DNA from: a virus
DNA length: 36,932 bases
Virus record (IMG/VR): IMGVR_UViG_3300037963_002735
Location: 1 to 36,932 of that record
Reading direction: 5' to 3' (one strand)
Part shown: piece after piece, positions 14,771 to 26,788 of the stretch
Layout of the letters: each line of letters opens with the position of its first letter
How positions within the stretch are numbered: position 1 is the first letter of the stretch
Translations under genes and position numbers: made by a program
Notes under the pieces: generated by a model
Seen by the model: the letters and a program-made list of their open reading frames with translations, nothing else
Database searches by the model: none
What the model was told of the DNA's origin: nothing

Positions 14771-15103
14771 GTGAGTGCCGAGGAGGAGTCTGCTCAATGG
14801 GAGGAATGGTCCGAAGAGTACGGTTATCTTGCCTCGGAAATTTACACTGGCATTAAAAACACTTCTCATTTGCTAGATGTGTCTGACGGGAATCATGCTA
14901 AGTGGCATGATGATTCGTTAGCGGTAATGCTCGTGTTGCCGTTTGAGCACGCTATGGCGTTTTCTGCGGAGTCAATGATGAACGACTTTGAAAACAGTCC
15001 TTTGCATAGCCATGTGTTTTCAATAGTCAGTGGTTTGATTCTTGCTTCGGCTGATGCAATGGATGAGTCTATGGACGACTCAGACTATGAAGTAGATGAG
15101 TAA
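14771..15103 (+). CDS. Small acidic protein, unknown (110 aa)
   Basis: GTG at 14771 is preferred: it begins one base after the holin stop, whereas the longer in-frame ATG at 14720 would overlap the holin by 50 bases. The protein is highly acidic at both ends (SAEEESAQWEEWSEEY and ESMDDSDYEVDE) with a hydrophobic middle (LAVMLVLPFEHAMAF and SIVSGLILASADAM). It is the last gene of the rightward block, and its final 24 bases overlap the convergent HTH gene. A lysis-related role is possible from location. No family is recognised. Confidence 0.65.
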   Translation: MSAEEESAQWEEWSEEYGYLASEIYTGIKNTSHLLDVSDGNHAKWHDDSLAVMLVLPFEHAMAFSAESMMNDFENSPLHSHVFSIVSGLILASADAMDESMDDSDYEVDE

Positions 15104-15463
15104 AAAATTTAAGTAGTCTCTAACGACTTGTCGTTTGTTTAACGCTCGTTTTAGTTTTCTTAAAATAAAGTCACGTTTACGTGCCACTGTTGTTTTAGGT
15201 AGCTGAGTTAATCGTTCGACTTGTCTGAGACTTAATCGTTCAAATAACAAAGCGTTTAGTAACCAAATTTCGTCTTTGTCTAATTCATCGAAAGCATCTA
15301 ACACAGCTTCTTGTAGCTGTATGCGCTCTTCTTGAGATTCTTCTAGTGCTGCGTGAGGTTCAGCTTCTTGAAGTATTTCTATTTCAGTTTGTTTTTGTTG
15401 TGGATTCCCTTGAACTTTCCATGCAAGATCAAGAGGATCAAAGGGAAATTCCTTCTTGACCAT
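15080..15463 (-). CDS. Sigma factor region 4-like HTH protein (127 aa)
   Basis: Residues 67-108 (WLLNALLFERLSLRQVERLTQLPKTTVARKRDFILRKLKRAL, shown for key residues L69, L79-V82, T91-R97) fit a sigma-70 region 4 helix-turn-helix: a helix, the SLRQVERL turn and a recognition helix. No region 2 or 3 is present. It is the last gene of the leftward block, so it could be made at the end of early expression and redirect host RNA polymerase to late promoters; that is inference. GGAGG sits only one base from the ATG at 15463, an unusually tight spacing. Its start overlaps the upstream nuclease gene by 26 bases and its end overlaps the convergent gene by 24. Confidence 0.75.
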   Translation of the reverse strand: MVKKEFPFDPLDLAWKVQGNPQQKQTEIEILQEAEPHAALEESQEERIQLQEAVLDAFDELDKDEIWLLNALLFERLSLRQVERLTQLPKTTVARKRDFILRKLKRALNKRQVVRDYLNFLLIYFIV

Positions 15464-15887
15464 ACCTCCATGCTATGTCGGCTGGTATGGCATAGTATTC
15501 CTTACCCTCTGGAAAAAATTTTGTTGGTGATTGCAGGCACAAGTCTCTAATTGTGTGAAATCTAAGAAACGTGTAGCGATCAAAGAACGAATCATAAAGA
15601 AATAACAAGACTTCCATTTGGTCATGCCACCATGACAGAGCTTGTAATTTATCTATCTTCATGTGGACTTCTTGGCTACGCCCAAACCCTTGTACCTCTA
15701 CTAGATAGTTCTCTGTGAGGTAGTCGGGTGTGTAACAAATATGTGAGGGTACTTTGTCTAGGCGAAATGGTGGCCTGTTCAGGCCATAGCGTGCGAAAGG
15801 CCAAGGTGCGACCTCTTCAAACTTGCCTTCGGATTGGTCGCCCATTTGGTTAAGACGTTCAGAGAAATCTAGGTCTTGGAACTTCAT
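15438..15887 (-). CDS. PD-(D/E)XK-like nuclease (149 aa)
   Basis: The ATG at 15887 is chosen because it overlaps the RusA stop as ATGA; a longer TTG start at 15908 is less likely. Residues 54-68 read PDYLTENYLVEVQGFG: Asp55, Glu64 and Gln66 in a D...ExQ arrangement. This is the core of a PD-(D/E)XK nuclease with Gln in place of the usual Lys; Lys78 or Lys80 may compensate. It is flanked by RusA and a transcription factor-like gene in a replication/recombination operon, so it is probably a DNA-processing endonuclease. A VRR-NUC or resolvase-type relationship is possible but not established. Confidence 0.7.
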   Translation of the reverse strand: MKFQDLDFSERLNQMGDQSEGKFEEVAPWPFARYGLNRPPFRLDKVPSHICYTPDYLTENYLVEVQGFGRSQEVHMKIDKLQALSWWHDQMEVLLFLYDSFFDRYTFLRFHTIRDLCLQSPTKFFPEGKEYYAIPADIAWRYGQEGISL

Positions 15888-16249
15888 AGTTTTTCTGCCT
15901 GTACCCAAACTACATCTCTGTCATTTGGAATGATCCCTGATTTCTGTAACCCATCAGCAGCTAGTTTGATGTAATTATCAAGGTCGCCACGCAGCTTGGG
16001 TTTACCCCAATCTGGTAGCGCCGTAATTTTTACGTATGTGCTTTCGTTCGTAAAATGTAATTCTAATTTTACTGGCCCTTCAAAGATTGGAGGGTTGTCG
16101 CCTACAGCTTCGACAATACGGTTCTCTGCTTCGACCGTTTCTTTAGGTGTGTAGGCACGTCCCCCACGGGTCATACGTGGACGGCCCTTTGTTCGGGGCC
16201 GTCCTTCTATGACTAGCTCATACGTGTCTGGTTGCTCTTTTTTGGGCAT
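15884..16249 (-). CDS. rusA: RusA-type Holliday junction resolvase
   Basis: 121 residues, the usual size for RusA. The N-terminal GRPRTKGRPRMTRGG resembles the family's basic strand. RGDLDNYIKLAADGLQ supplies the acidic pair Asp89/Asp91, and GIIPNDRDV contributes Asp110, the metal-binding residues that cut branched DNA. It overlaps the primase gene by 32 bases and the nuclease by 4. It would resolve recombination intermediates or concatemer branches before packaging. The start at 16249 is the only reasonable ATG that keeps the N-terminal strand. Confidence 0.92.
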   Translation of the reverse strand: MPKKEQPDTYELVIEGRPRTKGRPRMTRGGRAYTPKETVEAENRIVEAVGDNPPIFEGPVKLELHFTNESTYVKITALPDWGKPKLRGDLDNYIKLAADGLQKSGIIPNDRDVVWVQAEKL

Positions 16250-17261
16250 CGTCTACTAGTCGTTCCATTTGTCGGTCGCCGTCCCGTCGGCCCATAAACT
16301 TTGGGCCTTCTTCGTACCATTGGCCTAGTCGTGAATCTAGGTCGTTGGTCCATGACACTACGTCGCCTCGTTCAAATCCTGATTCAAACATTGCTCGTGC
16401 GAAACGGTTAAGGAATCCGTGTCGCCCTCTGCCTGCTCCGTGTTGTCTGTAATAGTCCACTGGCCCGTTACGGTACATCATTAACGCCAGTCCTCGTAGG
16501 CGTGAACCATCTATTCGCATAAGTGGTTCTTTGCTGTAGTCTCGGGGTGGTGGGATATCAGGTTCGGGGTCTTGGTATAGCTCTGCTGCTCGTTCTAGAT
16601 CTTCTAGTGGGGTTCGCGCTGCTTCGGCTCCTATTATGAAATCCCAAATGTCGTAGGTTTCCCCTGATTCGGTGTTGACCATTACTTGTCGCCCGTAGGG
16701 TCGTTCTCCTCCGTAGGGGAGGCGAATGTAGTTTCCTGGTGGGCCGTCTAGCCAATCTGATTTAGGATATACAGCGTCGTAGTCTCCTCCTGCGAGTTGC
16801 ATTACTGCTTGTAATGCTTTGCGCATGAGGGTGACGGGTGTCCATTGTTCCGCGAACACCCAGACGTGGTAGCCCTTACTGCGTGATCGTTCTAGCCATG
16901 CTGTAATTTCAAGGGCTTCAAATAATTTGATTGCGTTTTTAGCAATAATTTCTGAGTCGGTGTCGCCTTCGTCTATGTCGATGGCTCCCCACATGCACAT
17001 CCATAAATCCCTTTTCATGTCGGGATATATGGGTCGTGAATCTAAAGGTTCTCCTGATTGTAAGAACCCTGCTGGTCCAGTTTCTTTCTTATAGGGGTCG
17101 TAGACCATCGGATATATTCCGATCATCTCAGAGCCTTCTAGGTGCCTCTCAAACAGTTCTGTTGAGAGTGGGGTCCAGCGGCATCCGCCAGAGTCGGTGC
17201 CGTAGGCATAGGGGAACCCTTGAAAGACGTTACTGAATACGTTTGCTGCTGCGCTATCCAT
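16218..17261 (-). CDS. Archaeo-eukaryotic-type (AEP/TOTE-like) primase (347 aa)
   Basis: The ATG at 17261 is chosen because it lies in an 8-base overlap with the helicase stop; the longer form from 17318 would overlap by 65 bases. AEP landmarks appear in order: AIDIDEGD with metal-binding Asp95 and Asp97; SRSKGYHVWVF with His132 (the sxH motif); and GNYIRLPYG at 176-184, typical of AEP primases of TOTE/phage type. The C-terminal third (after about 250) lacks recognisable motifs and may be the primase C-terminal helical part. It would make primers beside the helicase gene upstream. No polymerase gene is present, so host polymerase is probably used. Confidence 0.85.
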   Translation of the reverse strand: MDSAAANVFSNVFQGFPYAYGTDSGGCRWTPLSTELFERHLEGSEMIGIYPMVYDPYKKETGPAGFLQSGEPLDSRPIYPDMKRDLWMCMWGAIDIDEGDTDSEIIAKNAIKLFEALEITAWLERSRSKGYHVWVFAEQWTPVTLMRKALQAVMQLAGGDYDAVYPKSDWLDGPPGNYIRLPYGGERPYGRQVMVNTESGETYDIWDFIIGAEAARTPLEDLERAAELYQDPEPDIPPPRDYSKEPLMRIDGSRLRGLALMMYRNGPVDYYRQHGAGRGRHGFLNRFARAMFESGFERGDVVSWTNDLDSRLGQWYEEGPKFMGRRDGDRQMERLVDDAQKRATRHV

Positions 17262-18252
17262 CGAACGTGCCTTGTTCCCATGTAACTCCTGGCTCCAGAA
17301 TACGTCCGCTGCTGTCAATGGTGAGGTTTACCTCAGCTTTTTCCCCATCTCCAGCTTTGTTTTTCCACAGGCCAGCGGAAACTTCGTCCTCGTAATGAGC
17401 ACGAGTTTCCTCATCTAGGTTGGTGTCATCCCACCTACGCCATGTTTCAATTAGGAAATGGCTTTCACTTGTGGATGCATACCTGCCTGCTTCAATGCCG
17501 CCAGCTTTGCCACGGTTACCTGTACCTCTGCCAGATTGGTGAATGATTACTCCCACCAATCGCCAGTCAGATACCAGTTGCTTAAACGATTCGATCTTTG
17601 CTTGGACGCTAGCTGCGTCCCCAGCTTCGCCGCCTCGGATTAGTTCTAGGAAATCGTAAACTAAAACTTCTGGTCGTTTGCCTCCCCACAAAGTAGTGGA
17701 TGCAATACGTAACGCTTTGTCTAAATCATCGACACTCATGCCAGTGGATTCAAAGTGGAGGTTCTTTTCGTCCTCCATGATTTGTTCCACCCGTTCCCAT
17801 GCCGTCGCATCCTCTCGGATAAGTCGGTTCAACCATTCTCGTTGATCGAACTCCAACCGAATAGACGAATATCGTCCCCAAAACATTGTTTCTGTTTCGT
17901 CGGGGCTAACCCAGAGTGTGCGATGGTTGCGATTCTTCGCAACCATGTTCATTGCAAGCAACGTTTTACCTGTATGCGATCTACCTATCAGGGTTACTAG
18001 TTGCCCTGGTCTTGCTCCTCCGAGTGTGGCCTCGTCAAAGGCTCGTACTCCGAAGCTCCATTCGTTGCCTGCGCGTAGGTCGTGTCGCATCCGACGTACT
18101 TGTTCCCCCTTGGGGGTGAACAGTCTGCGTAGATCTTGGGCGCTTACACCTTCGATCTCTTGTGGTTCAGCGGCAGGAGGTTCGGGGGCGGACGCAGTTG
18201 CCGCCCCCGTGACGAGATCCCTCGCCTCCTCCAAGCTGATTTCTTTAGGCAT
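17254..18252 (-). CDS. DnaB/RecA-fold replicative helicase (332 aa)
   Basis: Walker A is GRSHTGKT (residues 90-97) and Walker B is VLVYDFLELI (196-205), matching the DnaB-type 'IDYLQL' element. A sensor region VGVIIHQSGRG (233-243) corresponds to the DnaB 'SQL' segment. The first 60 residues are Ala/Pro/Glu-rich and lack the DnaB N-terminal primase-interaction domain, so the protein is a short, helicase-core-only form. The neighbouring primase gene suggests a two-protein priming/unwinding unit. Its ATG lies in an 8-base overlap (ATGCCTAA) with the upstream gene. A non-helicase RecA-like ATPase role is the main alternative. Confidence 0.87.
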   Translation of the reverse strand: MPKEISLEEARDLVTGAATASAPEPPAAEPQEIEGVSAQDLRRLFTPKGEQVRRMRHDLRAGNEWSFGVRAFDEATLGGARPGQLVTLIGRSHTGKTLLAMNMVAKNRNHRTLWVSPDETETMFWGRYSSIRLEFDQREWLNRLIREDATAWERVEQIMEDEKNLHFESTGMSVDDLDKALRIASTTLWGGKRPEVLVYDFLELIRGGEAGDAASVQAKIESFKQLVSDWRLVGVIIHQSGRGTGNRGKAGGIEAGRYASTSESHFLIETWRRWDDTNLDEETRAHYEDEVSAGLWKNKAGDGEKAEVNLTIDSSGRILEPGVTWEQGTFDG

Positions 18253-18961
18253 CTAGGCCGACAAGCCAACCCTGTGGGTCAACTGGTTCGGGTCGTTCAG
18301 GCCATGACCAAGAAGTGTTCTTCTGTAGTCCAGCGAAGTAACCGCTCTTGCTTGCAAGAGGATGGTTGCCGTCGCCTTTACCTACATAGACTTGCCCATC
18401 TTCTCCAATGGACAGTCCCTTCTTAAGTTTGAAATCTCCGAGTCCGCACTTTCCAGTTTTGGTTGTCGGGATATCTTTACCTCGCATTGAGTCTGCCCAA
18501 TAATCCTGAGGAAATTGGCGAATCCCTGTTTGAAACAGTTTACGTATTGCTTGGTTGTCCATGAACGCTGAGTCTTTCGACGCATAAACAATTCCTGCAT
18601 TCTTTTCACTTAGGAATATCTTATGTACTGCATCGTAATCTTCATCGCCTAGATATTGGCTTTGTCCACGGGGCGTAGTTGTCGCCCCTTGGAATGCTTG
18701 GGTTACAGCCGCTACCGCTTCGGTTTCTGTTGCCGCCGCTGGCGCTGCTGCTGGTTGGGGCGCTGCCCCTAATTGTGTTTTAACATCCCCAAGGATGTTC
18801 GCTAACACTGTCGCATTATCCGTCAGTGTTGTGAGAATATCCTCATTGGGATCTGTTGCATTCGCTGATACCTGTGCTGCTGTCAAATCGACAGCACCTT
18901 TGAGTATCGTCTGTGCTTCTATGCTCGCACGCTCGTGCGGCTCCATTGGCTTCCATGCCAT
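18245..18961 (-). CDS. Replication-operon protein of unknown function (238 aa)
   Basis: ATG at 18961 overlaps the exonuclease stop (TAATG). The N-terminal half is Ala/Thr-rich with a flexible PQPAAAPAAATETEA linker (about 85-100). The C-terminal half has conserved-looking basic and aromatic segments (RQFPQDYWADSMRGKD, KCGLGDFKLKKGLSIGEDGQVYVGKG, WSWPERPEPV). A position between a Cas4-like exonuclease and a helicase is where phages often keep a single-strand binding or annealing protein, but no OB-fold signature is certain. Treat as hypothetical. Confidence 0.7.
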   Translation of the reverse strand: MAWKPMEPHERASIEAQTILKGAVDLTAAQVSANATDPNEDILTTLTDNATVLANILGDVKTQLGAAPQPAAAPAAATETEAVAAVTQAFQGATTTPRGQSQYLGDEDYDAVHKIFLSEKNAGIVYASKDSAFMDNQAIRKLFQTGIRQFPQDYWADSMRGKDIPTTKTGKCGLGDFKLKKGLSIGEDGQVYVGKGDGNHPLASKSGYFAGLQKNTSWSWPERPEPVDPQGWLVGLDA

Positions 18962-19761
18962 TACTTTGCGCCTCCTATGATTGCGCCTTTACACCGTGTC
19001 CACGCTGGACACCATTTCTCAGAACACCACCAGCCGTCATCACCGAGAGGATATTTAGTCATCTCGGATTCAACGACGTGGCATAGCCCTAAGACCTTTT
19101 GACGAAGCCAATCTGTATGGCTGTCGTCACGAACTATATCCATGCGACCGACACCCTTCGGGTGCATGATCGCATAAGAGAAATTAGAAATACCTTTAGC
19201 CCAGCAGTACGCCATTGACTGAACATCCCAGCGTTCGTACTGCCACCGATCCCTGCTGTAGTCCCGACTAGGGAACTTCCAGTCCCATAGTCTGTCCTCT
19301 TCAACTAAATCAATGGTGCCAGAAAACTTGACAATCCTATTGTCATCTTCATGGAAAACTAAATTAAAATATTCCTCAACCTCTACAGGTTGCAATTCTG
19401 GCAGCACCTCGGTGCGCCAGTTCTCGATCTTGCGTAGCCCTTCTGTGTATGCGCTCTCACCTGAATAGCTGTTCCATACTTCGATGGTAGGTAGAGCTTC
19501 CTCCCAGTACATCTCGAACGAGTCAATCATGTCCTGTCGGGTCATCTCTCCACCCGTCTTACGGGTGTTGAGTGCATCCTCAGCTACTGCGTGGCAGGCA
19601 GTACCTAGTGTGGCTGCGTCTTTTATTTCTTCGCTTACAAGGTTGAAGATAGTGTTTCGGAACCTTTCTAAACACATATCGGCAGTCTTTATTGTGGACT
19701 GCCTCACCCATGTATGCACCCAGCGACCTTCGCTGTCTTTGTGTAAGGGGTACTCGTTCAT
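18961..19761 (-). CDS. Cas4/RecB-like PD-(D/E)XK exonuclease with putative Fe-S cluster
   Basis: 266 residues. The motifs are in the order expected for the RecB/Cas4 exonuclease group: LGTACHAVAEDAL with His57; FSGTIDLVEEDRLWDWKF with Asp151, Asp160 and Lys162; and QSMAYCWA with Gln181 and Tyr185. Cys30 plus Cys246, Cys251 and Cys257 match the one-plus-three cysteine layout that holds a 4Fe-4S cluster in Cas4 and AddB. It probably resects double-stranded ends for recombination-dependent replication. A promoter/operator cassette lies just upstream, so this gene appears to begin a second leftward transcript. No adjacent CRISPR array is present, so a role in spacer capture is not supported. Confidence 0.88.
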   Translation of the reverse strand: MNEYPLHKDSEGRWVHTWVRQSTIKTADMCLERFRNTIFNLVSEEIKDAATLGTACHAVAEDALNTRKTGGEMTRQDMIDSFEMYWEEALPTIEVWNSYSGESAYTEGLRKIENWRTEVLPELQPVEVEEYFNLVFHEDDNRIVKFSGTIDLVEEDRLWDWKFPSRDYSRDRWQYERWDVQSMAYCWAKGISNFSYAIMHPKGVGRMDIVRDDSHTDWLRQKVLGLCHVVESEMTKYPLGDDGWWCSEKWCPAWTRCKGAIIGGAK

Positions 19762-19795
19762 GTTGTCAGTCTCTCAGTGGGGTAGGACACTGAGT

Positions 19796-19858
19796 GGTAC
19801 TAAGTACCCCCCAACCACCTACCAGAGGTTGGGGGAGACTAAGTAATTACTTAGTATA
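19796..19858 (-). promoter_or_regulatory. Leftward promoter/operator cassette A
   Basis: Reading leftward: TATACT (19858-19853, a good -10 box), overlapping the perfect 18-bp palindrome ACTAAGTAATTACTTAGT (19838-19855), then two bases, a 9-bp hairpin (19808-19835, 10-base loop), two bases and the half-site GTACTAAGT (19797-19805). A second copy with the same layout lies at 26645-26710. No good -35 is seen at 17 bases, which would suit an activator-dependent promoter. It precedes the exonuclease-helicase-primase genes. Confidence 0.65.
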
Positions 19859-19893
19859 GCGGACACCTGTTCTGATTCCACATTACAGTTTCG

Positions 19894-20100
19894 TTACGAC
19901 GCAGGTGTTCGGTGTGTTTCCTTCCACGGTTGGTCCCAGTCGTGCCACCGCTCACAACAGAGCGTGCAACGACAGCCACCTAGTGCGTAGGTAGCTATGA
20001 AACCGTGCCGTGTGAAATCGGATGGTTCCCATTCGATGTATTTCAAATTGCTGTATCTAGCCACGGGTTCTTTCAATTTCTTGTTTAGTAAATGAGTCAT
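19894..20100 (-). CDS. Small Cys-motif protein, actinophage-like (68 aa)
   Basis: ATG at 20100 preferred over a TTG two codons upstream. The C-terminal half reads RHGFIATYALGGCRCTLCCERW. It resembles the 'HGT..GY..GCRC..CR.A' motif of very common small actinobacteriophage proteins thought to bind zinc through the CxCxxC group. Possible DNA- or RNA-binding accessory of the replication block; no experimental function is known to me. No clear Shine-Dalgarno is visible, which leaves the start uncertain. Confidence 0.6.
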   Translation of the reverse strand: MTHLLNKKLKEPVARYSNLKYIEWEPSDFTRHGFIATYALGGCRCTLCCERWHDWDQPWKETHRTPAS

Positions 20101-20131
20101 CTTCAAAGATGACAGGGTTATTTCTACTCAT
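20057..20131 (-). CDS. Very short overlapping ORF (24 aa), doubtful
   Basis: An ATG inside the HNH gene stop (8-base overlap ATGAGTAG, the same style as true junctions in this operon) opens a 24-codon ORF, MSRNNPVIFEDDSFTKQEIE followed by RTRG. It ends 43 bases inside the next gene. It could be a leader peptide that couples translation of the Cys-motif protein, or chance. Confidence 0.25.
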   Translation of the reverse strand: MSRNNPVIFEDDSFTKQEIERTRG

Positions 20132-20798
20132 GGCTTTCTTCTGCCACGCCTCCCTCTCTTCTTTGCTTATTTTTGTTTTTTTCTTTGGCAAGTTCTCGCT
20201 CCAATTTTTTAATTAGGTTTTTCTGGTCACGGACCTTTAATAGCAGCATGGCATATCGTTTCTTCAAATGGCGGACCATAGAAGCATCGCCATTGTTTTC
20301 CATGCCTGTTGCGAGGACTAGATGGTCAGGGTTACAACACGCTGTGTTGTAACAGTCGTGATGAACTTGCAACCCATCAGGGATAGGACCGTTCTTGTAA
20401 ATCCACATCATTCGATGTGTTTGTACGTTGTTCTTTGTGCCACACCTAGCAGCTATGACTTTGGAATTAACTAGCCCGTAGCCTGCACGCAGCTTGGTGC
20501 GTTGCCACTCAAAACATCCGTAAGGAGTGATCTTGATGTATCCATGAACAGGGTTCATGTAATGCTCAACACGTTCTTCAAACGTCATAGGCATCATCGC
20601 ACGTAATGGAATGTCTGTACGTGGCTCACCATATTTAATGAAGTGAGTGTTATGCCCATTGCATAAAGCAAGTAAACCGTCGCGTGAACCTGGCCCTGTC
20701 CAAGGTTTACTAGACCTACGTGTGCCTGTGCATTGTGATCCGTCGGGCATAATTGCCCAACAGCGTTGTTTTCTGTATCTGTTTGATCGTTCGGTCAT
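20124..20798 (-). CDS. HNH endonuclease family protein 1 (224 aa)
   Basis: N-terminal zinc-type cysteines (RCWAIMPDGSQCTG) are followed by YIKITPYGCFEWQRTKLRAGYG and an HNH_3-like core: HRMMWIYKNGPIPDGLQVHHDCYNTACCNPDHL with the catalytic His pair and Asn-Pro-Asp-His end. The C-terminus (about 175-215) is a charged coiled coil. It is paralogous to the next gene upstream, with which it overlaps by four bases (ATGA). It may be a homing-type nuclease or a nickase/nuclease acting on host DNA. It is not inserted inside another gene, so there is no direct sign of homing. Confidence 0.85.
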   Translation of the reverse strand: MTERSNRYRKQRCWAIMPDGSQCTGTRRSSKPWTGPGSRDGLLALCNGHNTHFIKYGEPRTDIPLRAMMPMTFEERVEHYMNPVHGYIKITPYGCFEWQRTKLRAGYGLVNSKVIAARCGTKNNVQTHRMMWIYKNGPIPDGLQVHHDCYNTACCNPDHLVLATGMENNGDASMVRHLKKRYAMLLLKVRDQKNLIKKLERELAKEKNKNKQRREGGVAEESHE

Positions 20799-21742
20799 GC
20801 TGCTTTTCGTTTCAATCGTTTTATTTCAGCTTTAAGTTCAGCAATTTCTTCTCGTAAAGCTTTAACTCTGCACGCTTCTGAATTGTTTTCTATGTACGTA
20901 ATGTTTTCCAAATGGTCAAGGTTTACACACGCTCTTTCCCCACAGATATGGTGTATCTGGTTTCCTTCAGGGATAGTTTCGTTGTTGGCTACTTCCCAGA
21001 CTTTTCGGTGAGCGGCCATCCGAGTCGTTCCTTCACCATTTTTTGCTATGGAAATAGTTCCATAACCCGCCTCTGTTTTAGTGTGTTGCCAAACTAAACA
21101 ACCTTTTTTGTTTGGCTTCACGTACCCATTTTGGGGATCTAAATAGAAAGCAATAGTTTCAGGCCAGTCCAAATTAAACAAAGTAGGCCGCACTTTTGCA
21201 CCTGCTTGAAAAGTTTTACTTGCGTACCATCTTGCTCCGTGCGCAGCACAAACCTCGCCGTATTCGATTGACTTTGGGTCAAACGTCGGAGGGTCTTGCA
21301 GACCTATAAACCCTTTTTCCGTGTGTCGCCCACAGGGGGTTCCTTTGGAATCTATAGGCACCATGCAAGTGGTATTGCGTGGCAAAGATCCAGCCAACGG
21401 AACATGAGCAAACACATCTCCATATTTTTCTAACCGTCTGAAATGATTAGAACAATAATCGTCGGTCTGTGTGCGTTGCCTAAATGAACAGCCTTGAACT
21501 ATGCAGTCTTTATATTTTCGTTCTTTAATCAGTTCGGTTTTGCTACCCATGCAACAACGCCGATCTTGTTGTTTCTTAGCAGCACGGCGAGCGTTCCCAG
21601 GCAACACATACCTTGGTTCCCCACAACGAGCACACTTCACATACCACGGTGTTTGCGAATCTTCGCCGTATGGCTCTAACGGAATGTATTCAAATTCTCG
21701 CATCTCTTTGTCAGCTTCTTCTGATGTTTTTTTAACTGCCAT
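20795..21742 (-). CDS. HNH endonuclease family protein 2 (315 aa)
   Basis: Starts directly after the lysozyme-like gene (stop TAA, then ATG). It has two N-terminal Cys-rich segments (KCARCGEPR..RRCC and CIVQGCSFRQ...CSNH), then TCMVPIDSKGTPCG and CAAHG, then NGYVKPNKKGCLVWQHTKTEAGYG and the HNH core HRKVWEVANNETIPEGNQIHHICGERACVNLDHL. It ends in a short Lys/Glu coiled coil. The order of modules parallels the 224-residue neighbour, with an extra N-terminal zinc region, so the pair probably arose by tandem duplication. Confidence 0.85.
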   Translation of the reverse strand: MAVKKTSEEADKEMREFEYIPLEPYGEDSQTPWYVKCARCGEPRYVLPGNARRAAKKQQDRRCCMGSKTELIKERKYKDCIVQGCSFRQRTQTDDYCSNHFRRLEKYGDVFAHVPLAGSLPRNTTCMVPIDSKGTPCGRHTEKGFIGLQDPPTFDPKSIEYGEVCAAHGARWYASKTFQAGAKVRPTLFNLDWPETIAFYLDPQNGYVKPNKKGCLVWQHTKTEAGYGTISIAKNGEGTTRMAAHRKVWEVANNETIPEGNQIHHICGERACVNLDHLENITYIENNSEACRVKALREEIAELKAEIKRLKRKAA

Positions 21743-22078
21743 TTACCTGTACCTCCCACAGGTCCATAATTGCCACCCTCCACGGGTGTTCTCGTGTATG
21801 TAGTGCGCCATCCATGTTGACTGCACCACTTCGTACCGTTTCGGCCAGTGTTTTTCAAACACATGGCCCCAATAATGTTCGTTTATTTGAAACAACCCAT
21901 GATCTACCCCGTTGTAGGCACGGGGATTGTGTAGTGACTCGCACCACGCAATCCCCAGCGCCCTTACGCAGTCGTCTGCGAAGTATTCGCAAACAACTTC
22001 GGGGATCTCCGCATTCGGTGGCTCATAATTCACCGATGCGAAGTCAAGGATTGACCAAATAGCCAACCAAAGATTCAT
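21743..22078 (-). CDS. Lysozyme/transglycosylase-like protein in the early block (111 aa)
   Basis: The core reads GIAWCESLHNPRAYNGVDHGLFQINEHYW: Glu47 in the 'A.CES..NP.A' context followed by GLFQIN is the hallmark of SLT/lysozyme-like muramidases. At 111 residues it is a minimal domain. The N-terminus (MNLWLAIWSILDFASV) is hydrophobic but short, a possible weak signal or anchor. It lies between replication genes and is read leftward, far from the amidase/holin lysis cassette. It may act at entry, at superinfection or as a second lysin. It overlaps the upstream gene as ATGA. Confidence 0.8.
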   Translation of the reverse strand: MNLWLAIWSILDFASVNYEPPNAEIPEVVCEYFADDCVRALGIAWCESLHNPRAYNGVDHGLFQINEHYWGHVFEKHWPKRYEVVQSTWMAHYIHENTRGGWQLWTCGRYR

Positions 22079-22530
22079 GTTGTTTCAAACCTTTGGTAAT
22101 TACCCTCGATCTCTTGGATCACCCGATCCTCGTGAAGCGCTAGCCCTGCACCACCCGACATAGGGGTAGTCGGACGTTCCGCCCACTCGTCGTACATGAC
22201 CGCCCAGACAAGAGCCATCGCATGAACCGAACGCTTATTCAGTCCCGACATGTTGCCGTTAAATATCTGCTTTTTGCAATGAGTTTTGAAGTCAGAGTAA
22301 TCAATAAGTTCTGCACGATTGGAAACGTAATTCACCCAATCTTGCTGAGGAACTGACACCCTGACAGGGTAATCACGTTCAGGTGTATCCTGAATCTCTT
22401 TGAATGACACACCGACTCTGGCACAGAAACGTCCAAGAGACTTTGGGTCACGACCACGTACAAGCACATGCCCGTCGTTGTCTAGGTCTTTCACGGTTGA
22501 AAAGAAACCGTCGTCTGTAAATGTCCACAT
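22075..22530 (-). CDS. Early protein of unknown function (151 aa)
   Basis: The start is set at 22530 (MWTFTDDGFF) because the hairpinned GGAGG lies just upstream; the longer frame would read through the intergenic hairpin. The protein has an N-terminal 'VKDLDNDGHVLVRGRDPKSLGRFC' segment and a C-terminal helical part (RSVHAMALVWAVMYDEWAE). No domain is recognised. It forms a coupled unit with the lysozyme-like gene that follows. Confidence 0.7.
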   Translation of the reverse strand: MWTFTDDGFFSTVKDLDNDGHVLVRGRDPKSLGRFCARVGVSFKEIQDTPERDYPVRVSVPQQDWVNYVSNRAELIDYSDFKTHCKKQIFNGNMSGLNKRSVHAMALVWAVMYDEWAERPTTPMSGGAGLALHEDRVIQEIEGNYQRFETT

Positions 22531-22534
22531 AAGC

Positions 22535-22548
22535 AACCTCCAATGGTT
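22535..22548 (-). promoter_or_regulatory. SD hairpin of the 151-aa gene
   Basis: On the coding strand AACC, loop ATTGGA, GGTT. The Shine-Dalgarno GGAGG spans the loop and the 3' arm; ATG follows four bases after the stem. Confidence 0.6.
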
Positions 22549-22568
22549 TGTGGGTTTGTTTGCTACTA

Positions 22569-22609
22569 GGTGTATTACACCCTCACTTCGTGAGGGGGTG
22601 TAATACACC
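22569..22609 (-). repeat. Large intergenic hairpin, early-block type
   Basis: Arms GGTGTATTACACCCTCAC and GTGAGGGGGTGTAATACACC pair over 18 bases with two extra G, closed by a TTC loop. There is no U-run after either arm, so it is not a standard terminator. Same design as the hairpins at 24828 and 24428. Confidence 0.75.
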
Positions 22610-22625
22610 AAGAGTTGGGGGGGCA

Positions 22626-22671
22626 GGGAGGCCAGGAGGGAGGTATACCGTTAGGTATCACCTGGCCTCCC
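22626..22671 (-). promoter_or_regulatory. GC-rich 11-bp hairpin after the DUF932-like gene
   Basis: GGGAGGCCAGG (22626-22636) pairs perfectly with CCTGGCCTCCC (22661-22671), with an inner ATACC/GGTAT stem. It lies 17 bases past the stop of the DUF932-like gene. Strong enough to stall or protect RNA, but no U-run follows leftward, so termination is uncertain. Confidence 0.6.
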
Positions 22672-22687
22672 CAGACCTATCCTACCG

Positions 22688-23698
22688 TCACACACCTACT
22701 AGTAGTAGCTCTCGCAGATATTGTTCTGCCGCATCTGCAATAGGTGTTTTACGATCCAAGACTTTCTCAAATCCTTTCTGCTTTGCAGCAGTCGTAGACT
22801 TGAAGCCTTGATTGATTCGATGCTGCTCGGCACCTTGGAATGCGTTGTATGCGAACCATCCATTACCCCAGACACCATTAGTTTCTTTTGACCAAGCGTT
22901 CAGGATCGCAGCACGTTTCGCATCTACAGCGTTCCGAGTTTTAGTGGGAGCGTCCATGTCTGCCTCTGGCAGTAGAGCGTTAAGCATCCGATAGAACGCA
23001 ACATCACTAAGCCCTTTTTCGCTGAGGTTGCGTGCAAAGGTGACAAGATTGTCACTATTCACCTTGCTTGCCTCCAGCAACGCTGACCGTAAGGTCAGTA
23101 GGTCGTCGTGATTCTTAGTTGACTTAACTTGGATCAGTCCTTTGGACAGATCCAACATGTTCAAGCAACTAACACGGTGACCAACAGCGTTGATCGTTGT
23201 CTTAGCTTGTCCGTTTAAGGACGAGCTAGTGATTATCACAGGTAAAATATTGTCACCATCCATAACTTCAATCGGATCTCCGATTTGTTGGGTGATAGCG
23301 ATACGCTCCCCACGACCAAACACAGTGATGTCTGTGCAACTATCAGGGAACATAGTTTCCATAGTTTCAAAGACGTGCTTGTATCCGTCACGTTGTGGGT
23401 ATCGACCAGAATGTAACCCAAGATCCGTAGAATCTTCTACTTCACCTAAGTCCAGCGGATTAACGCCGTCCACACGAAGAACATACAAGTTCTTAGGGTG
23501 ACCTTTCTTGTTACCTTTTTCGTAAACAGGGGTCTTAAGCTCACCTGTCATGGGGCATACATATCGTGATGCCACATATTCGACAGGGAAATCAGCATTT
23601 ACCTCTGATGCAACGTCAAGGACGTTGCGTCCATGTTCGTTTACCTCTTTGGTCAACCAGTCGTGACCTTCGTGGTAGATAACGGTTTCTAATGTCAT
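22688..23698 (-). CDS. DUF932-like phage/plasmid protein (336 aa)
   Basis: The ATG at 23698 is chosen because a hairpinned GGAGG lies just upstream; the longer GTG form adds low-quality sequence. The overall plan fits the DUF932 group: an N-terminal EVNADFPVEYVASRYVCPMTGEL region, a middle rich in beta strands (RIAITQQIGDPIEVMDGDNILPVIITSSSLNG), then 'HRVSCLNML' and a C-terminal ETNGVWGNGWFAYNAFQGAEQHR like the family's 'NT.W...NA.TEY..H'. DUF932 proteins are abundant in phages and plasmids; their role is not established. An early-expressed location is usual for them. Confidence 0.75.
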   Translation of the reverse strand: MTLETVIYHEGHDWLTKEVNEHGRNVLDVASEVNADFPVEYVASRYVCPMTGELKTPVYEKGNKKGHPKNLYVLRVDGVNPLDLGEVEDSTDLGLHSGRYPQRDGYKHVFETMETMFPDSCTDITVFGRGERIAITQQIGDPIEVMDGDNILPVIITSSSLNGQAKTTINAVGHRVSCLNMLDLSKGLIQVKSTKNHDDLLTLRSALLEASKVNSDNLVTFARNLSEKGLSDVAFYRMLNALLPEADMDAPTKTRNAVDAKRAAILNAWSKETNGVWGNGWFAYNAFQGAEQHRINQGFKSTTAAKQKGFEKVLDRKTPIADAAEQYLRELLLVGV

Positions 23699-23704
23699 GT
23701 AAAC

Positions 23705-23718
23705 ACACCTCCAAGTGT
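23705..23718 (-). promoter_or_regulatory. SD hairpin of the DUF932-like gene
   Basis: On the coding strand ACAC, loop TTGGAG, GTGT; GGAGG spans the loop and arm. ATG follows six bases after the stem. Confidence 0.55.
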
Positions 23719-24108
23719 ATTTGTTAATTGATTTATTTACTTTACCAAGTGGGTGGGACACTCACTCAGAAGCGTGGAATGTTAGGGATTTGCACCCCTA
23801 CACCCTCTCCAAACAAGAACCCAATGAACATAGATCAAGCGCCTTTCACCTGATCGTCCGATCTTGCCTGTCATGTGTATTGCTAGCCTTGCCGTGTAAC
23901 GTCATTGAGCTACGCCTTCACTGTGCCTGCCGTGACTTTTGAAGATTGCTCTCAACTTCTGGTCCTCAACGCATGGCGTTTCCGCATGGCGTATATGGAC
24001 CTCAACTTATTAACAATACTTCTCCTGCCAGACAACTCATAGAGACTTACCACTTAACCTTAGGTGGATAAGTGTGCTCTTTCGCCTTGGCCACATTCCT
24101 TATGTTTG
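23719..24108 (-). ncRNA. Gene-free 390-base interval; candidate structured RNA (24099 to 23776)
   Basis: No convincing ORF on either strand. On the minus strand GGAATGT (24099-24093) can pair with ACATTCC (23782-23776). Immediately before the latter is a T-arm-like hairpin (TAGGG, loop GTGCAAAT, CCCTA; 23800-23783), followed by a single A as discriminator. That is the geometry of a tRNA or tmRNA 3' end with a 324-base span. Inside are several short hairpins (GATCG/CGATC, GAAG/CTTC, two copies of CGCATGGCG). However, the usual tmRNA GGTTTCGAC start and an ALAA-type tag were not found, and the D- and anticodon arms are not clear. A tRNA-like structured RNA is possible; function open. Confidence 0.35.
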
Positions 24109-24153
24109 TGGGAGTATTTACCCCCTCAAACTAGAGGGGGGTAAATACACCCA
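24109..24153 (-). repeat. Large intergenic hairpin, GTATTTA type
   Basis: Core arms GTATTTACCCCCTC (24114-24127) and GAGGGGGGTAAATAC (24134-24148) with loop AAACTA, lying eight bases beyond the stop of the 79-aa gene. Compared with the copies at 24432 and 25763, one A-T pair is replaced by a C-G pair, so pairing is kept. Confidence 0.75.
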
Positions 24154-24160
24154 ACACTTG

Positions 24161-24400
24161 TTAAACGGGGCTGTACACCCCTTCCAGATGCTCATTCATA
24201 GCGATAACAGCGTCGTCGTACGTGTCGTATTTCTTCGACATAATCGTAGACATTCCGTTGCCATCATCCAACGCACCTAGATCTACAGTCACCTGAAAGA
24301 AAAACCAATCACGATCTTCCATTTTGGATACAGATGCCGCCGTCACATAGGGTCTATCGTAGATACACTCCATGCTCTGGTTGATTTCTTTTGTTGTCAT
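24161..24400 (-). CDS. Small early protein, unknown (79 aa)
   Basis: ATG at 24400 with GGGGAGGT in the loop of a hairpin. Aromatic and acidic (CIYDRPYVTAASVSKMEDRDWFFFQVTVDLG), with C-terminal DTYDDAVIAMNEHLEGVY that could form a short helix. No Cys pairs or membrane segment. Part of a cluster of small leftward genes where phages usually keep host-takeover or counter-defence proteins; this specific role is not shown. Confidence 0.75.
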   Translation of the reverse strand: MTTKEINQSMECIYDRPYVTAASVSKMEDRDWFFFQVTVDLGALDDGNGMSTIMSKKYDTYDDAVIAMNEHLEGVYSPV

Positions 24401-24402
24401 AC

Positions 24403-24418
24403 CCGACCTCCCCGTCGG
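24403..24418 (-). promoter_or_regulatory. SD hairpin of the 79-aa gene
   Basis: On the coding strand CCGAC, loop GGGGAG, GTCGG: five perfect pairs, two bases before the ATG. Confidence 0.65.
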
Positions 24419-24427
24419 TGTTGTTGT

Positions 24428-24471
24428 GGGAGTATTTAACCCCTCAAACTAGAGGGGGTTAAATACACCCA
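24428..24471 (-). repeat. Large intergenic hairpin, GTATTTAA type
   Basis: Core arms GTATTTAACCCCTC (24432-24445) and GAGGGGGTTAAATAC (24452-24466), loop AAACTA, with an outer GGG/CCC extension across an A-A mismatch. Nine bases past the upstream gene's stop. Confidence 0.8.
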
Positions 24472-24479
24472 ACATTTGA

Positions 24480-24800
24480 TTACATCCCAGGTTCCCACGT
24501 ATCTTCGGTGAGAATCCAAGTCGAACGAACGTCATACTTAGATGTGAACACACCAGCTTCTAATAGCTGGTTCCCATACTCATACCGCTTACGGGAAATG
24601 TTTGCTTCCTTATGGACAGGTGGAACGATAGTTCCAGTCAAAGAGTAAACCGCTTCAGCGGTTTGCGCATCCAAGAAAGCCCGAACCAAATTCGCATCAG
24701 CACCGTCCAAAGGACGGAACCTAGCTCGAACAGTGGCACCCATACCTACGATGTCGCCACCTACAGCGTAAAGTGCTGCACCCTCTATCCAATTGCTCAT
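24480..24800 (-). CDS. Small early protein, unknown (106 aa)
   Basis: ATG at 24800 preceded by a hairpinned GGAGG. The protein has a hydrophobic Gly-rich N-terminus (IEGAALYAVGGDIVGMGATV), a middle DGADANLVRAFLDAQTAEAVY helix and a C-terminal aromatic end (STWILTEDTWEPGM). No family is recognised. It is separated from the neighbours on both sides by large hairpins, so it may be translated independently. Confidence 0.75.
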   Translation of the reverse strand: MSNWIEGAALYAVGGDIVGMGATVRARFRPLDGADANLVRAFLDAQTAEAVYSLTGTIVPPVHKEANISRKRYEYGNQLLEAGVFTSKYDVRSTWILTEDTWEPGM

Positions 24801-24804
24801 ATTT

Positions 24805-24820
24805 CCGATCCTCCAATCGG
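24805..24820 (-). promoter_or_regulatory. SD hairpin of the 106-aa gene
   Basis: On the coding strand CCGAT, loop TGGAGG, ATCGG: five perfect pairs with the complete Shine-Dalgarno in a six-base loop, four bases before the ATG. Confidence 0.7.
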
Positions 24821-24827
24821 TTGTTTA

Positions 24828-24877
24828 TTGGGGGTATTACACCCCTCACTACGTGAGGGGGGTGTAATACCTCCCAA
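24828..24877 (-). repeat. Large intergenic hairpin, GTATTACA type
   Basis: Arms GGTATTACACCCCTCAC and GTGAGGGGGGTGTAATACC pair with two extra G and a TAC loop, with an outer TTGGG/CCCAA extension past one bulged T. Three bases past the stop of the 58-aa gene. Closest in design to the copy at 22569. Confidence 0.8.
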
Positions 24878-24880
24878 ACT

Positions 24881-25057
24881 CTACTTTCGCTCGGCATCAA
24901 GCCGTGCCTGCCACCAAGCCTTCCACTCAGCTTCAGCACGAGCCTGCCTAGCCTTACGCTCTGCCTGTAAGCGTTCCCATTTCGCTATGAGCAACATATG
25001 TGACCAAGCGATAGCGAACCCAAACAACAGGTACGATGCAGCAGGAATATCAGGCAT
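24881..25057 (-). CDS. Small membrane protein with basic coiled tail (58 aa)
   Basis: A 58-codon ORF whose ATG overlaps the upstream stop (TGATG). Residues 6-25 (AASYLLFGFAIAWSHMLLIA) form one hydrophobic segment. Residues 26-58 are a charged, Ala/Arg/Trp-rich helix (KWERLQAERKARQARAEAEW). Likely a single-pass inner-membrane protein with a cytoplasmic basic tail. Co-translated with the 118-aa protein. Function unknown; an antiholin, superinfection or takeover role is possible but speculative. Confidence 0.72.
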   Translation of the reverse strand: MPDIPAASYLLFGFAIAWSHMLLIAKWERLQAERKARQARAEAEWKAWWQARLDAERK

Positions 25058-25413
25058 CACGCATTCACCTGCCAGTACTCACGAATATTCTGCAAAGCCT
25101 GCACATCATCGGGATGCCAAGTATCTCCAGATACTTTGAACTCGTCCTCTAACTCTGAAAGAGTCCCCTCGTGACCCTCATAGCCAAGGTAATACCACGA
25201 CACTAGATGACCGTCCTCTAGGACGGCAGTCTCGTAAGCCTCATTAGTGAGGAACACTTTGCCGCTGTGAGTATTAAACATAGGCCGCACCATGTCTGAC
25301 TCAAAGTCAGACGGCAACCCACACATATTCCATGCCGTAAGCAACTCAACAAGAATCTGCCGCTCACGAGCACCAAACCGACCTATGTCGGTAGTAACAA
25401 TATCATCATACAT
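25057..25413 (-). CDS. Small early protein, unknown (118 aa)
   Basis: The start at 25413 (MYDDIVTTD) is set by the hairpinned GGAGG upstream; the longer frame runs back through the hairpin. Soluble and acidic, with an N-terminal helical part (RERQILVELLTAWNMCGL) and a C-terminal WHPDDVQALQNIREYW. No motif is recognised. Its stop overlaps the next ATG, so the 58-aa membrane protein is probably made in step with it. Confidence 0.75.
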   Translation of the reverse strand: MYDDIVTTDIGRFGARERQILVELLTAWNMCGLPSDFESDMVRPMFNTHSGKVFLTNEAYETAVLEDGHLVSWYYLGYEGHEGTLSELEDEFKVSGDTWHPDDVQALQNIREYWQVNA

Positions 25414-25417
25414 TTTT

Positions 25418-25431
25418 CGGACCTCCATCCG
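25418..25431 (-). promoter_or_regulatory. SD hairpin of the 118-aa gene
   Basis: On the coding strand CGGA, loop TGGAGG, TCCG: four perfect pairs, four bases before the ATG. Confidence 0.65.
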
Positions 25432-25466
25432 TAATATTCCAATCAACATATCAAGAGATTGGGGCA

Positions 25467-25491
25467 GATCCACCACCAAAGGTGGTGAATC
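25467..25491 (-). repeat. Intergenic hairpin, CACCACC type
   Basis: CACCACC (25471-25477), loop AAA, GGTGGTG, with an outer GAT/ATC stem across one mismatch. Same position (12 bases past a stop) as the GTATTTAA hairpins but a different sequence. Confidence 0.7.
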
Positions 25492-25503
25492 CGACTCAAC
25501 CGC

Positions 25504-25731
25504 TTACTTATTGAGCAACTCGACACCCTTTTCAAGGGTCAAATCATAAGACAAGGCATACGCCCAGCCATCATATTCAGGCCGATTAAAGTCCTTAATA
25601 GCAACCACAAACGGTGCTTCAGGGAAGGGACATTCGTCCCTTTTCACTAGGATTCTAAAGAATCCAGGGTCGTTAGCAATTTCAACCTTGTCGATAATGG
25701 GATACCCATTAGCAGTGGTAATTTCATTCAT
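25504..25731 (-). CDS. Small early protein, unknown (75 aa)
   Basis: The ATG at 25731 is selected because the hairpinned GGAGG lies directly before it. Sequence MNEITTANGYPIIDKVEIAN, then DPGFFRILVKRDECPFPEAPFVVAIKDF and a C-terminal helix. Mixed alpha/beta, single Cys. Flanked by large hairpins on both sides. No family recognised. Confidence 0.75.
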   Translation of the reverse strand: MNEITTANGYPIIDKVEIANDPGFFRILVKRDECPFPEAPFVVAIKDFNRPEYDGWAYALSYDLTLEKGVELLNK

Positions 25732-25748
25732 CCGATTTCCTCCATCGG
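25732..25748 (-). promoter_or_regulatory. SD hairpin of the 75-aa gene
   Basis: On the coding strand CCGAT, loop GGAGGAA, ATCGG: five perfect pairs with the complete Shine-Dalgarno in the loop. The stem abuts the ATG directly. Confidence 0.7.
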
Positions 25749-25762
25749 TTTTGATAGTGAGA

Positions 25763-25797
25763 GTATTTAACCCCTCAAACAAGAGGGGGTTAAATAC
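25763..25797 (-). repeat. Large intergenic hairpin, GTATTTAA type
   Basis: GTATTTAACCCCTC (25763-25776), loop AAACAA, GAGGGGGTTAAATAC (25783-25797). Nearly identical arms to the copy at 24432, with one loop base changed. Confidence 0.8.
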
Positions 25798-25827
25798 ACT
25801 CAATCCAGCAGTTAGCTGATCTAACCC

Positions 25828-25849
25828 TCCAACCCCCTAAGGGGTTGGA
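25828..25849 (-). promoter_or_regulatory. Hairpin after the 57-aa gene
   Basis: TCCAACCCC (25828-25836), loop CTAA, GGGGTTGGA: nine perfect pairs, 32 bases past the stop at 25882. No U-run follows leftward. Could be a processing or stabilising element. Confidence 0.65.
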
Positions 25850-25881
25850 AAGAAAGAACAAACAACGCTGTAAGCGTTACC

Positions 25882-26055
25882 TCAATCCAATACCTTCGGC
25901 AAAGCAACAGCCAACAGCCCCATCAGATCTACGATCTGCTTCGGAGTCAAAGTCACTTTCATCTGAGATTGAGAAACCAAAATCCCTTGGGGATTCAACA
26001 CCTGCTCTTCAACAGAATCAGCAAAGACAGCAGTAAATTCAAAAGTTTTCATCAT
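25882..26055 (-). CDS. Small early protein, unknown (57 aa)
   Basis: A 57-codon ORF; its first ATG overlaps the upstream stop (TAATG), and a second in-frame ATG follows directly. Sequence MMKTFEFTAVFADSVEEQVL, then NPQGILVSQSQMKVTLTPKQ and a hydrophobic C-terminal helix IVDLMGLLAVALPKVLD. The last 17 residues could be amphipathic or peripherally membrane bound. It forms a coupled pair with the 56-aa gene. No family recognised. Confidence 0.7.
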   Translation of the reverse strand: MMKTFEFTAVFADSVEEQVLNPQGILVSQSQMKVTLTPKQIVDLMGLLAVALPKVLD

Positions 26056-26225
26056 TAGACTAACTCTCCAATCGCATCGAGATACCTCTCGATATCACCC
26101 AAAGCTCTCCTAATTTCAGGAGCAGTATTTCCAGCTTCAATCTGCTGAAGCAGCAACAATCTCATATTTTTGTAACCATCCAAAGATGGTTCCAAACTGA
26201 TAAAGCTAATTTCTTTATTTGCCAT
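26055..26225 (-). CDS. First gene of the leftward block, unknown (56 aa)
   Basis: The start at 26225 (MANKEISFIS) is used; an in-frame ATG at 26237 lies inside the Shine-Dalgarno and is not credible. Acidic helical protein: NMRLLLLQQIEAGNTAPEIRRALGDIERYLDAIGEL. It is the promoter-proximal gene after the divergent control region, so it is probably among the earliest products. Function unknown. Confidence 0.72.
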   Translation of the reverse strand: MANKEISFISLEPSLDGYKNMRLLLLQQIEAGNTAPEIRRALGDIERYLDAIGELV

Positions 26226-26242
26226 TTCGACCTCCATCGAAA
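26225..26242 (-). promoter_or_regulatory. SD hairpin of the 56-aa gene
   Basis: On the coding strand TTTCGA, loop TGGAGG, TCGAAA: six perfect pairs with the Shine-Dalgarno alone in the loop. The last paired base is the A of the ATG. Confidence 0.75.
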
Positions 26243-26254
26243 ATTTGGTTTGGG

Positions 26255-26291
26255 GTTTTCTCTCCCCTCAAAAAGAGGGGGGAGAGAAAAC
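26255..26291 (-). repeat. Large leader hairpin before the first early gene
   Basis: GTTTTCTCTCCCCTC (26255-26269), loop AAAAA, GAGGGGGGAGAGAAAAC (26275-26291), with two extra G as in the other copies. It occupies the same place relative to the SD hairpin as the intergenic hairpins, though here it is not preceded by a gene. Confidence 0.75.
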
Positions 26292-26399
26292 TCTTTCAAA
26301 GAGAATCAAGCTACTTTCAGAACCCCCAGCAAAACCCCCCAACCATCGAAGGGTTGCCACGAAGTGGCAGCGGTCCGCTATTTGCCACCACCAACAGCA

Positions 26400-26414
26400 A
26401 ATTACAGAGTAATT
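26400..26414. promoter_or_regulatory. Operator-like palindrome O1
   Basis: AATTAC, spacer AGA, GTAATT: perfect 6-bp arms with the same AGA spacer as O3. Confidence 0.45.
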
Positions 26415-26426
26415 CTGGGCCGTTTC

Positions 26427-26443
26427 CTAGTACAAAGTACTAG
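26427..26443. promoter_or_regulatory. Operator-like palindrome O2
   Basis: CTAGTAC, spacer AAA, GTACTAG: perfect 7-bp arms, six bases from O3. Confidence 0.6.
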
Positions 26444-26448
26444 TTTTT

Positions 26449-26469
26449 ACTTAGTACAGAGTACTAAGT
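26449..26469. promoter_or_regulatory. Operator-like palindrome O3
   Basis: Arms ACTTAGTAC and GTACTAAGT around spacer AGA: nine perfect pairs. Best match to a dimeric regulator site in this region. Confidence 0.65.
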
Positions 26470-26632
26470 GCAGCGGCGGTCCACCGAACTGGCCCAGCTT
26501 GCTGAAAGCAAGCCGCACGCACCCACCCCCCTGTGGGGGTACGCCCCCTTGCGCACGTATATGTATAGATATCCATTTGGAATGCGTTTGGTTTTTAGAA
26601 CTTGAATCCTTTGTCGCTGTATGCGCCAAAGT

Positions 26633-26653
26633 TCTTAGTTCCTAGTACTAAGT
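26633..26653. promoter_or_regulatory. Operator-like imperfect palindrome O4
   Basis: TCTTAGTTC, spacer CTA, GTACTAAGT: right half identical to O3; left half has two mismatches. Confidence 0.5.
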
Positions 26654-26710
26654 GTCAATCTCCATCCCTGGGGGGTATGGAGATTGGTACTAAGTAATTA
26701 CTTAGTATAG
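26645..26710 (-). promoter_or_regulatory. Leftward promoter/operator cassette B
   Basis: Half-site GTACTAAGT (26645-26653), two bases, a 10-bp hairpin CAATCTCCAT/ATGGAGATTG with an 11-base loop (26656-26686), two bases, palindrome ACTAAGTAATTACTTAGT (26689-26706) and the leftward box TATACT (26710-26705, partly overlapping). Same order and spacing as cassette A at 19796-19858 but a different hairpin sequence. It would drive the cluster of small early genes. No good -35 is visible. Confidence 0.65.
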
Positions 26711-26753
26711 GGGGAGAGTGTCCCGTTTTATTTACTGGTTGTGTGTGTTTGTA

Positions 26754-26763: not shown

Positions 26764-26788
26764 CATATTCTAGTTAGGTGTCTGCTTG

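Follow-up and report, generated by a model that had tools for sequence, protein, structure and literature searches.

We describe here a composite element that occurs twice in the IMG/VR virus record IMGVR_UViG_3300037963_002735, a stretch of 36,932 bases that was analysed over its whole length and that we call the window. Its two copies, cassette A (19797-19858) and cassette B (26645-26709), each head a block of leftward genes and, judging from their sequence and from that of their relatives, are probably two copies of one composite promoter-operator leader coordinating two early leftward operons. The general unit consists of an 11-bp near-palindrome, GTACTNAGTAC, abutting a near-perfect hairpin of approximately 8-14 bp, which is followed by GTACTNAGTAC again. 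Both cassettes exist as described in the original prediction, made from the window's sequence, and their sites are indeed common to A and B while the hairpin arms are unrelated. The unit is smaller than the one proposed there, as could be seen by reading upstream of the exonuclease gene in relatives: the 18-bp palindrome that had been taken for a core element is a clade-specific extension, present in close relatives only, in which a further site lies 11 bp upstream of the first and overlaps the leftward TATACT.

All parts of cassette A are assigned to the leftward (minus) strand, its hairpin arms and palindrome being written here as they read on the plus strand. The second site, GTACTTAGTAC, lies at 19797-19807 (read on the plus strand as GTACTAAGT at 19797-19805, then 2 nt) and is followed by the hairpin (19808-19835), whose arms CCCCCAACC (19808-19816) and GGTTGGGGG (19827-19835) enclose a 10-nt loop. 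Two nucleotides from the arm begins the 18-bp palindrome ACTAAGTAATTACTTAGT (19838-19855), which holds the first site, ACTTAGT, and the extra site, and a −10-like hexamer TATACT can be read directly at 19853-19858. Cassette B has the same order on the same strand, with the second site ACTTAGTACTA at 26643-26653 (GTACTAAGT at 26645-26653 on the plus strand, then 2 nt), a hairpin at 26656-26686 with arms CAATCTCCAT (26656-26665) and ATGGAGATTG (26677-26686) around an 11-nt loop, the first site ACTTAGT and its extra site within the same 18-bp palindrome (26689-26706), again 2 nt from the arm, and TATACT, also read directly, at 26704-26709. The B loop can fold further, an inner CCC/GGG pairing with a bulged A reducing the apical loop to CCCA. 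The 18-bp palindrome has exactly two matches in the 36.9 kb even when three mismatches are allowed (0.02 expected from shuffles), and a search of the window for the site-hairpin-site arrangement returned A and B only.

To follow the element through the phage family, we used IMG/VR relatives of the window, of which 80 were kept out of 121 found by the exonuclease and 80 out of 405 found by the terminase; further relatives were added with an exonuclease alignment, and a search with the 18-bp palindrome gave 16 stretches, a few of them unrelated. A mechanical search for ACTNAGT-hairpin-ACTNAGT found 123 cases in these loci, duplicates included, versus one in reversed sequence. After orientation and removal of duplicates, 74 distinct elements remained (45 at A and 29 at B), falling into 32 sequence clusters, one of which (L135) turned out to be an artefact of a different AT-rich repeat. 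Across the other 31, the core of the site is nearly invariant: ACT and AGT are fixed in nearly all, a flanking G and C are common, and the centre is free. The stem starts with a C-G pair in 29 of the 31 clusters, and each of its positions 2-9 shows three to four Watson-Crick pair types. At A, the arms change stepwise and in pairs (window CCCCCAACC/GGTTGGGGG versus CCCCCAATC/GATTGGGGG in L033), and paired changes are equally seen at B, where the window's CAATCTCCAT/ATGGAGATTG corresponds to CAATCTCCTC/GAGGAGATTG in L036 and to CAATTTCTAT/ATAGAAATTG in L097; the B hairpin of L109 carries compensatory changes as well. The arms thus drift yet keep their pairing while the 11-mer sites stay, which argues for conservation of structure rather than simple copying.

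The search of relatives for the composite motif, suggested in the original prediction, therefore found the motif, with covarying arms and fixed sites. Hairpin and 11-mer sites do not drift independently, whereas the 18-bp palindrome is lost outside its clade. Of the "conserved spacing and structure" claimed for the cassettes, the structure holds, as the compensatory arms indicate, but the distance between the sites does not: it runs from 32 to 45 bp, continuously with hairpin length, and helical phasing of the two sites is thereby ruled out. The gap between site and stem is approximately 2 nt, and is exactly 2 nt on both sides in 18 of the 32 clusters, so that the hairpin, and not the linear spacing, seems to be the feature that is kept. 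Several B elements carry a third site 11-13 bp past the second.

The position of the element is as conserved as its layout. In a loose search, it was found at A in all 66 exonuclease relatives with 700 bp of upstream sequence, their exonucleases being approximately 57-99% identical, and at B in 29 of 35 TerS-side regions, compared with 9 and 9, respectively, in reversed sequence. At least one of the six B misses has an explanation, since the B element of L150/G008 was passed over by the search on account of a mismatch in its stem. In L169, the place expected for the B element (approximately 1250-1330) holds about five TGTAACA-type repeats, mostly in 11-bp steps, and a tandem CTAGG array. In near-complete relatives, the 11-mer sites occur almost only at A and B. 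Cassette A heads the leftward block at 15080-19761, which encodes the exonuclease, a 238-aa protein, a DnaB-like helicase, a primase, RusA, a 156-aa protein and a sigma region 4-like protein; cassette B heads the leftward block at 19894-26237, with small genes, a DUF932 protein, a lysozyme-like protein, two HNH endonucleases and a 70-aa open reading frame (ORF). In L025, where a gene has been inserted between the A element and the exonuclease, the element still stands first in the block, which fits a role at the operon head better than translational control of a single gene. Between cassette A and the exonuclease start (19762-19795, minus strand), the window has an in-frame stretch S-V-S-Y-P, similar to MKNSLSHP and MRNSLSHP in L039 and L026, which might represent a leader peptide or a former start.

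In 22 of the 32 clusters, the two sites flanking a hairpin carry the same free centre base, against a mean of 10.0 in shuffles and none as high in 20,000, a comparison that gives no exact probability because the clusters are related. A and B of one genome also match in the class of their centre base (strong or weak) in seven of eight lineages. Such agreement within and between elements points to a single trans-acting factor, with a drifting preference, reading both A and B. A candidate for this factor in the window is a sigma-70 region 4-like helix-turn-helix protein of 127 aa encoded at the end of the A block (15080-15463, minus strand). Its Pfam sequence match is weak, and the region 4 fold is recognised from the predicted structure, which aligns with the −35-binding domain of Mycobacterium tuberculosis SigL (3hug_C; VIA-align Z 10.6, root-mean-square deviation 1.7, 77 residues). 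A near-invariant stretch, PKTTVARKRD, conserved in 25 relatives, is its presumed recognition helix. The protein is likely a transcription regulator of the phage family and a candidate for binding the 11-mer sites. The cyanobacterial LexA box (GTAC-N4-GTWC) was considered for the sites and rejected, as its spacing differs from the N3 found here.

Promoter-like features accompany the elements on the leftward strand. The TATACT of A and B corresponds to a sigma-70 −10 hexamer, and a TANNCT, TAGAAT or TAAGGT hexamer precedes site 1 by 5-10 nt in 18 of 18 A clusters (those of L075 and L089, re-read by eye, are TAAACT, 9 nt before site 1). In several lineages, the A hexamer also seems to take in the TAG that ends the upstream gene, and coding may account for some of its conservation. 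At B, several lineages have TATAAT, TATAGT or TATACT, and many show the order GGGACA, approximately 9 bp, TATANT-like hexamer; 12 of 13 B clusters have the conserved GGGACA (or GGGACG), found at 26719-26724 on the minus strand of the window, at a distance of 22-31 bp upstream of site 1. Neither hairpin gave a terminator-like match in a search for intrinsic terminators. The divergent region of the window (26245-26835) further contains TATCTATACATA, CGCATACAG, an inverted pair TGTCCC...GGGACA and GC-rich hairpins, and its leftward-strand motifs are kept in distant relatives; this region is possibly a replication origin or a second promoter. An accessory cluster of CTAGTACAAAGTACTAG and ACTTAGTACAGAGTACTAAGT (26427-26469) lies on the B side, and comparable clusters adjoin B in G009, G012 and G013.

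Each cassette is also flanked by an 11-bp direct repeat resembling a PhoB box, identified by pattern match: TCGTAAC-N4-CTGTAAT beside A (19882-19899, minus strand) and TTGTAAC-N4-CTGTCAT beside B (26749-26766, plus strand). These are the only two matches to YYGTMAY-N4-YYGTMAY in the window. Of the distinct matches over all loci, 40 are no more than 150 bp away from an element and 15 lie elsewhere, versus five in all in the reversed control, counts that are not blind because the pattern was written after the repeat had been noticed in the same sequences. Most of the 15 come from TerS-side regions in which the search detected no element. At B, the repeat keeps a distance of 53-54 bp from the element across lineages, and this, together with the location of the repeats, would be hard to explain by chance. 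The layout of the PhoB box, cited as CTGTCAT-N4-CTGTCAT (PMC2573895), with two CTGTCAT-like half-sites of 7 bp placed 11 bp apart, is approximated at both A and B. Host PhoB can bind cyanophage promoters, and Pho boxes predicted in phage genomes are unreliable without binding assays (PMC10976474). The phages studied here resemble those cyanophages in having PhoB-box-like direct repeats at putative promoters, and differ in that control by PhoB is predicted here from the 11-bp repeats.

From these features, we infer the start and early timing of transcription, the binding of a regulator, the direction of regulation and the role of the hairpin in the following way. RNA polymerase would start just upstream of, or within, the first GTACTNAGTAC site. 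One dimeric regulator, encoded by the phage or the host, would bind this first site as well as the matching site behind the hairpin and, in the window's clade, the extra site overlapping the −10 hexamer; by occupying the start site and the early transcribed region, it would set both operons together. A second input may come from the PhoB-box-like repeats and, at B, the GGGACA motif, taking the place of a −35 hexamer, and the hairpin would be kept for its fold, not its letters, giving the sites a compact geometry. Beyond this, we tentatively consider that the elements might form a new class of control element: two copies of one regulator site are brought together by a hairpin whose sequence is free, as extruded DNA or nascent RNA, one trans-acting factor switches both early operons, and the centre base co-evolves with that factor.

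Several observations weigh against a promoter-operator leader of this kind. No promoter-like pair with a TTGACA-like sigma-70 −35 hexamer 16-18 nt upstream was found in the A or B regions, although activator-dependent promoters do without one. Of the original proposal, two coordinately controlled leftward units are supported at the level of sequence by the leftward hexamers, by sites and repeats confined to A and B and by matching centre bases; their promoters are putative and lack a −35 hexamer. TATCTATACATA, conserved approximately 100 bp downstream of B, could itself be the real leftward promoter there, and the PhoB-box-like repeat at B faces away from leftward transcription. With distances ranging continuously over 32-45 bp, the two sites are unlikely to be bound cooperatively from the same face of linear DNA, and a scan of 76 small ORFs in relatives revealed no clear repressor. 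Finally, small leftward genes of the window are preceded by a second set of intergenic hairpins (at 22564, 24106, 24424, 24823, 25755 and 26245), two of which are nested palindromes of like layout with another flanking site (GGTGTATTACACC, hairpin, GTGTAATACACC); as these lack the 11-mer sites, such hairpins may belong to leaders in general.

The hairpins before the small genes would also fit an action of the element as RNA, which we regard as rather unlikely. The transcript would then begin at the first site, and GUACUNAGUAC-hairpin-GUACUNAGUAC would fold back into one long stem at the 5' end, serving to protect or process the mRNA or to allow readthrough of terminators as the put RNA of HK022 does. 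A transcript inferred from the −10 hexamer would indeed start at the fold, RNA folding is strong (z approximately −3 to −6), the second site adjoins the Shine-Dalgarno region in many A elements, and the put RNAs are likewise two per phage and downstream of early promoters (PMC9378689). Yet neither strand folds better, 10 of 18 A clusters and 3 of 13 B clusters giving the lower value for the leftward one, and the outer arms are fixed instead of covarying as expected of an RNA stem, their like centre bases being mismatched when the transcript folds back. When wobble is counted within stems only, no G-T pair appears in the inner stems of the 74 distinct elements; an A-C pair occurs in one lineage, and mismatches of other kinds in two elements. 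This set required eight consecutive perfect pairs and so undercounts wobble; in a second set with less bias, comprising 42 distinct A elements, G-T pairs, where read, sit at stem ends. RNA helices usually tolerate G-U, and the near-exclusive Watson-Crick pairing therefore leans away from a pure RNA role. In a search of Rfam, none of 4227 families matched the window at its gathering score, the weak matches being two microRNA models far below their thresholds.

The same pairing, without clear strand bias, would suit a DNA hairpin or cruciform, extruded in negatively supercoiled or single-stranded DNA and bringing the two dimer sites together as a switch or a replication-initiation structure. The site spacing, which spans a full helical turn while the gap to the stem stays near 2 nt, fits this explanation, as does the long nested palindrome that the element forms over its entire length. 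We give it a low probability, a little below that of an RNA leader: the loops at B have retained a C-rich, A-terminated sequence specific to one strand, and template switching at quasipalindromes is another possible source of perfect palindromes (PMC7202029), a process that can also keep repeats perfect and limits the weight of the missing G-T pairs. That two similar copies per genome merely reflect a selfish or mobile repeated palindrome, or a chance repeat with no regulatory role, is very improbable, being contradicted by the two fixed orthologous positions across lineages, the unrelated arms of A and B between fixed sites, and the near absence of further sites in near-complete relatives.

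Among described systems, the nearest is the ESAS of cluster K mycobacteriophages, paired conserved sequences that precede the start codons of some of the phage genes and lie over putative SigA promoters, with a consensus that differs between subclusters and seven copies in Adephagia (PMC3203893, PMC11373665). These consist of 17-bp inverted repeats of conserved sequence, 12-14 bp apart, and are associated with a 13-bp SAS, GGGATAGGAGCCC, that adjoins the start codon (PMC3203893, PMC11373665). Cassettes A and B share with them the paired conserved sequences around putative promoters. In contrast to ESAS, the conserved units are separate short near-palindromes of 11 bp, they lie 32-45 bp apart start to start, the hairpin between them has pairing arms of free sequence, and there are two copies per genome; the A leader reads ...CACTGAGAGACTGACAACATG, without such a 13-mer. 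The putL and putR sites of HK022 resemble A and B in copy number, place downstream of early promoters and stem-loop content, but share their sequence, contain two stem-loops apiece and do not require palindromic sites in the DNA (PMC9378689), whereas here a single hairpin of free sequence, with no internal wobble pairs and unrelated arms at A and B, lies between fixed sites. The element may therefore be seen as a variant phage promoter-operator leader that belongs neither to ESAS, given its arms, spacer and lack of the 13-bp start sequence, nor to put, given its structure. Multipartite phage operators have tandem dimer sites, and the short near-palindromes described here, some of them 11 bp apart and overlapping the −10 hexamer, are similar; they differ in that no repressor was found and that a structure-conserved hairpin lies between the sites. 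Our literature search found no description of a site-hairpin-site layout, nothing relevant for the site string and no paper on hairpin extrusion at phage operators. A generic search for near-palindromes flanking a hairpin was too strict, as it missed the window's own A/B pair.

The virus record encodes terminase, portal, scaffold, capsid and endolysin on its rightward strand, and the exonuclease, DnaB-like helicase, primase and RusA on its leftward strand. No near-identical DNA was found in the phage collection. The only close relative among cultured or named phages is MW202803 (portal 42%, TerL 50% and exonuclease 27% identity), in which the site-hairpin-site element was not found. Relatives of the exonuclease and helicase were sought in 84,980 bacterial and archaeal genomes and none was found; several of the IMG sample numbers lead us to assume that the family is marine. 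The large terminase is encoded by two overlapping ORFs on the plus strand of the window, one for the ATPase part (28276-29163, 295 aa) and one for the nuclease part (29157-29822, 221 aa), an arrangement also seen in the near-complete relatives read (for example, 11997-12884 and 11338-12003 in L250), whereas the TerL of MW202803 is a single protein of 560 aa. A single plus-strand ORF of 2588 aa occupies positions 6026-13792, and ORFs of approximately 2650-4140 aa are found at the corresponding place in relatives.

Should the 11-bp repeats prove to be genuine PhoB boxes, they would link early transcription in these phages to the phosphate state of their hosts. More generally, the element provides a presumably marine group of uncultured phages with a regulatory module whose recognition needs no more than sequence and which marks their two leftward operons, and its dozens of natural sequence variants offer material for probing what a hairpin between two operator sites does.
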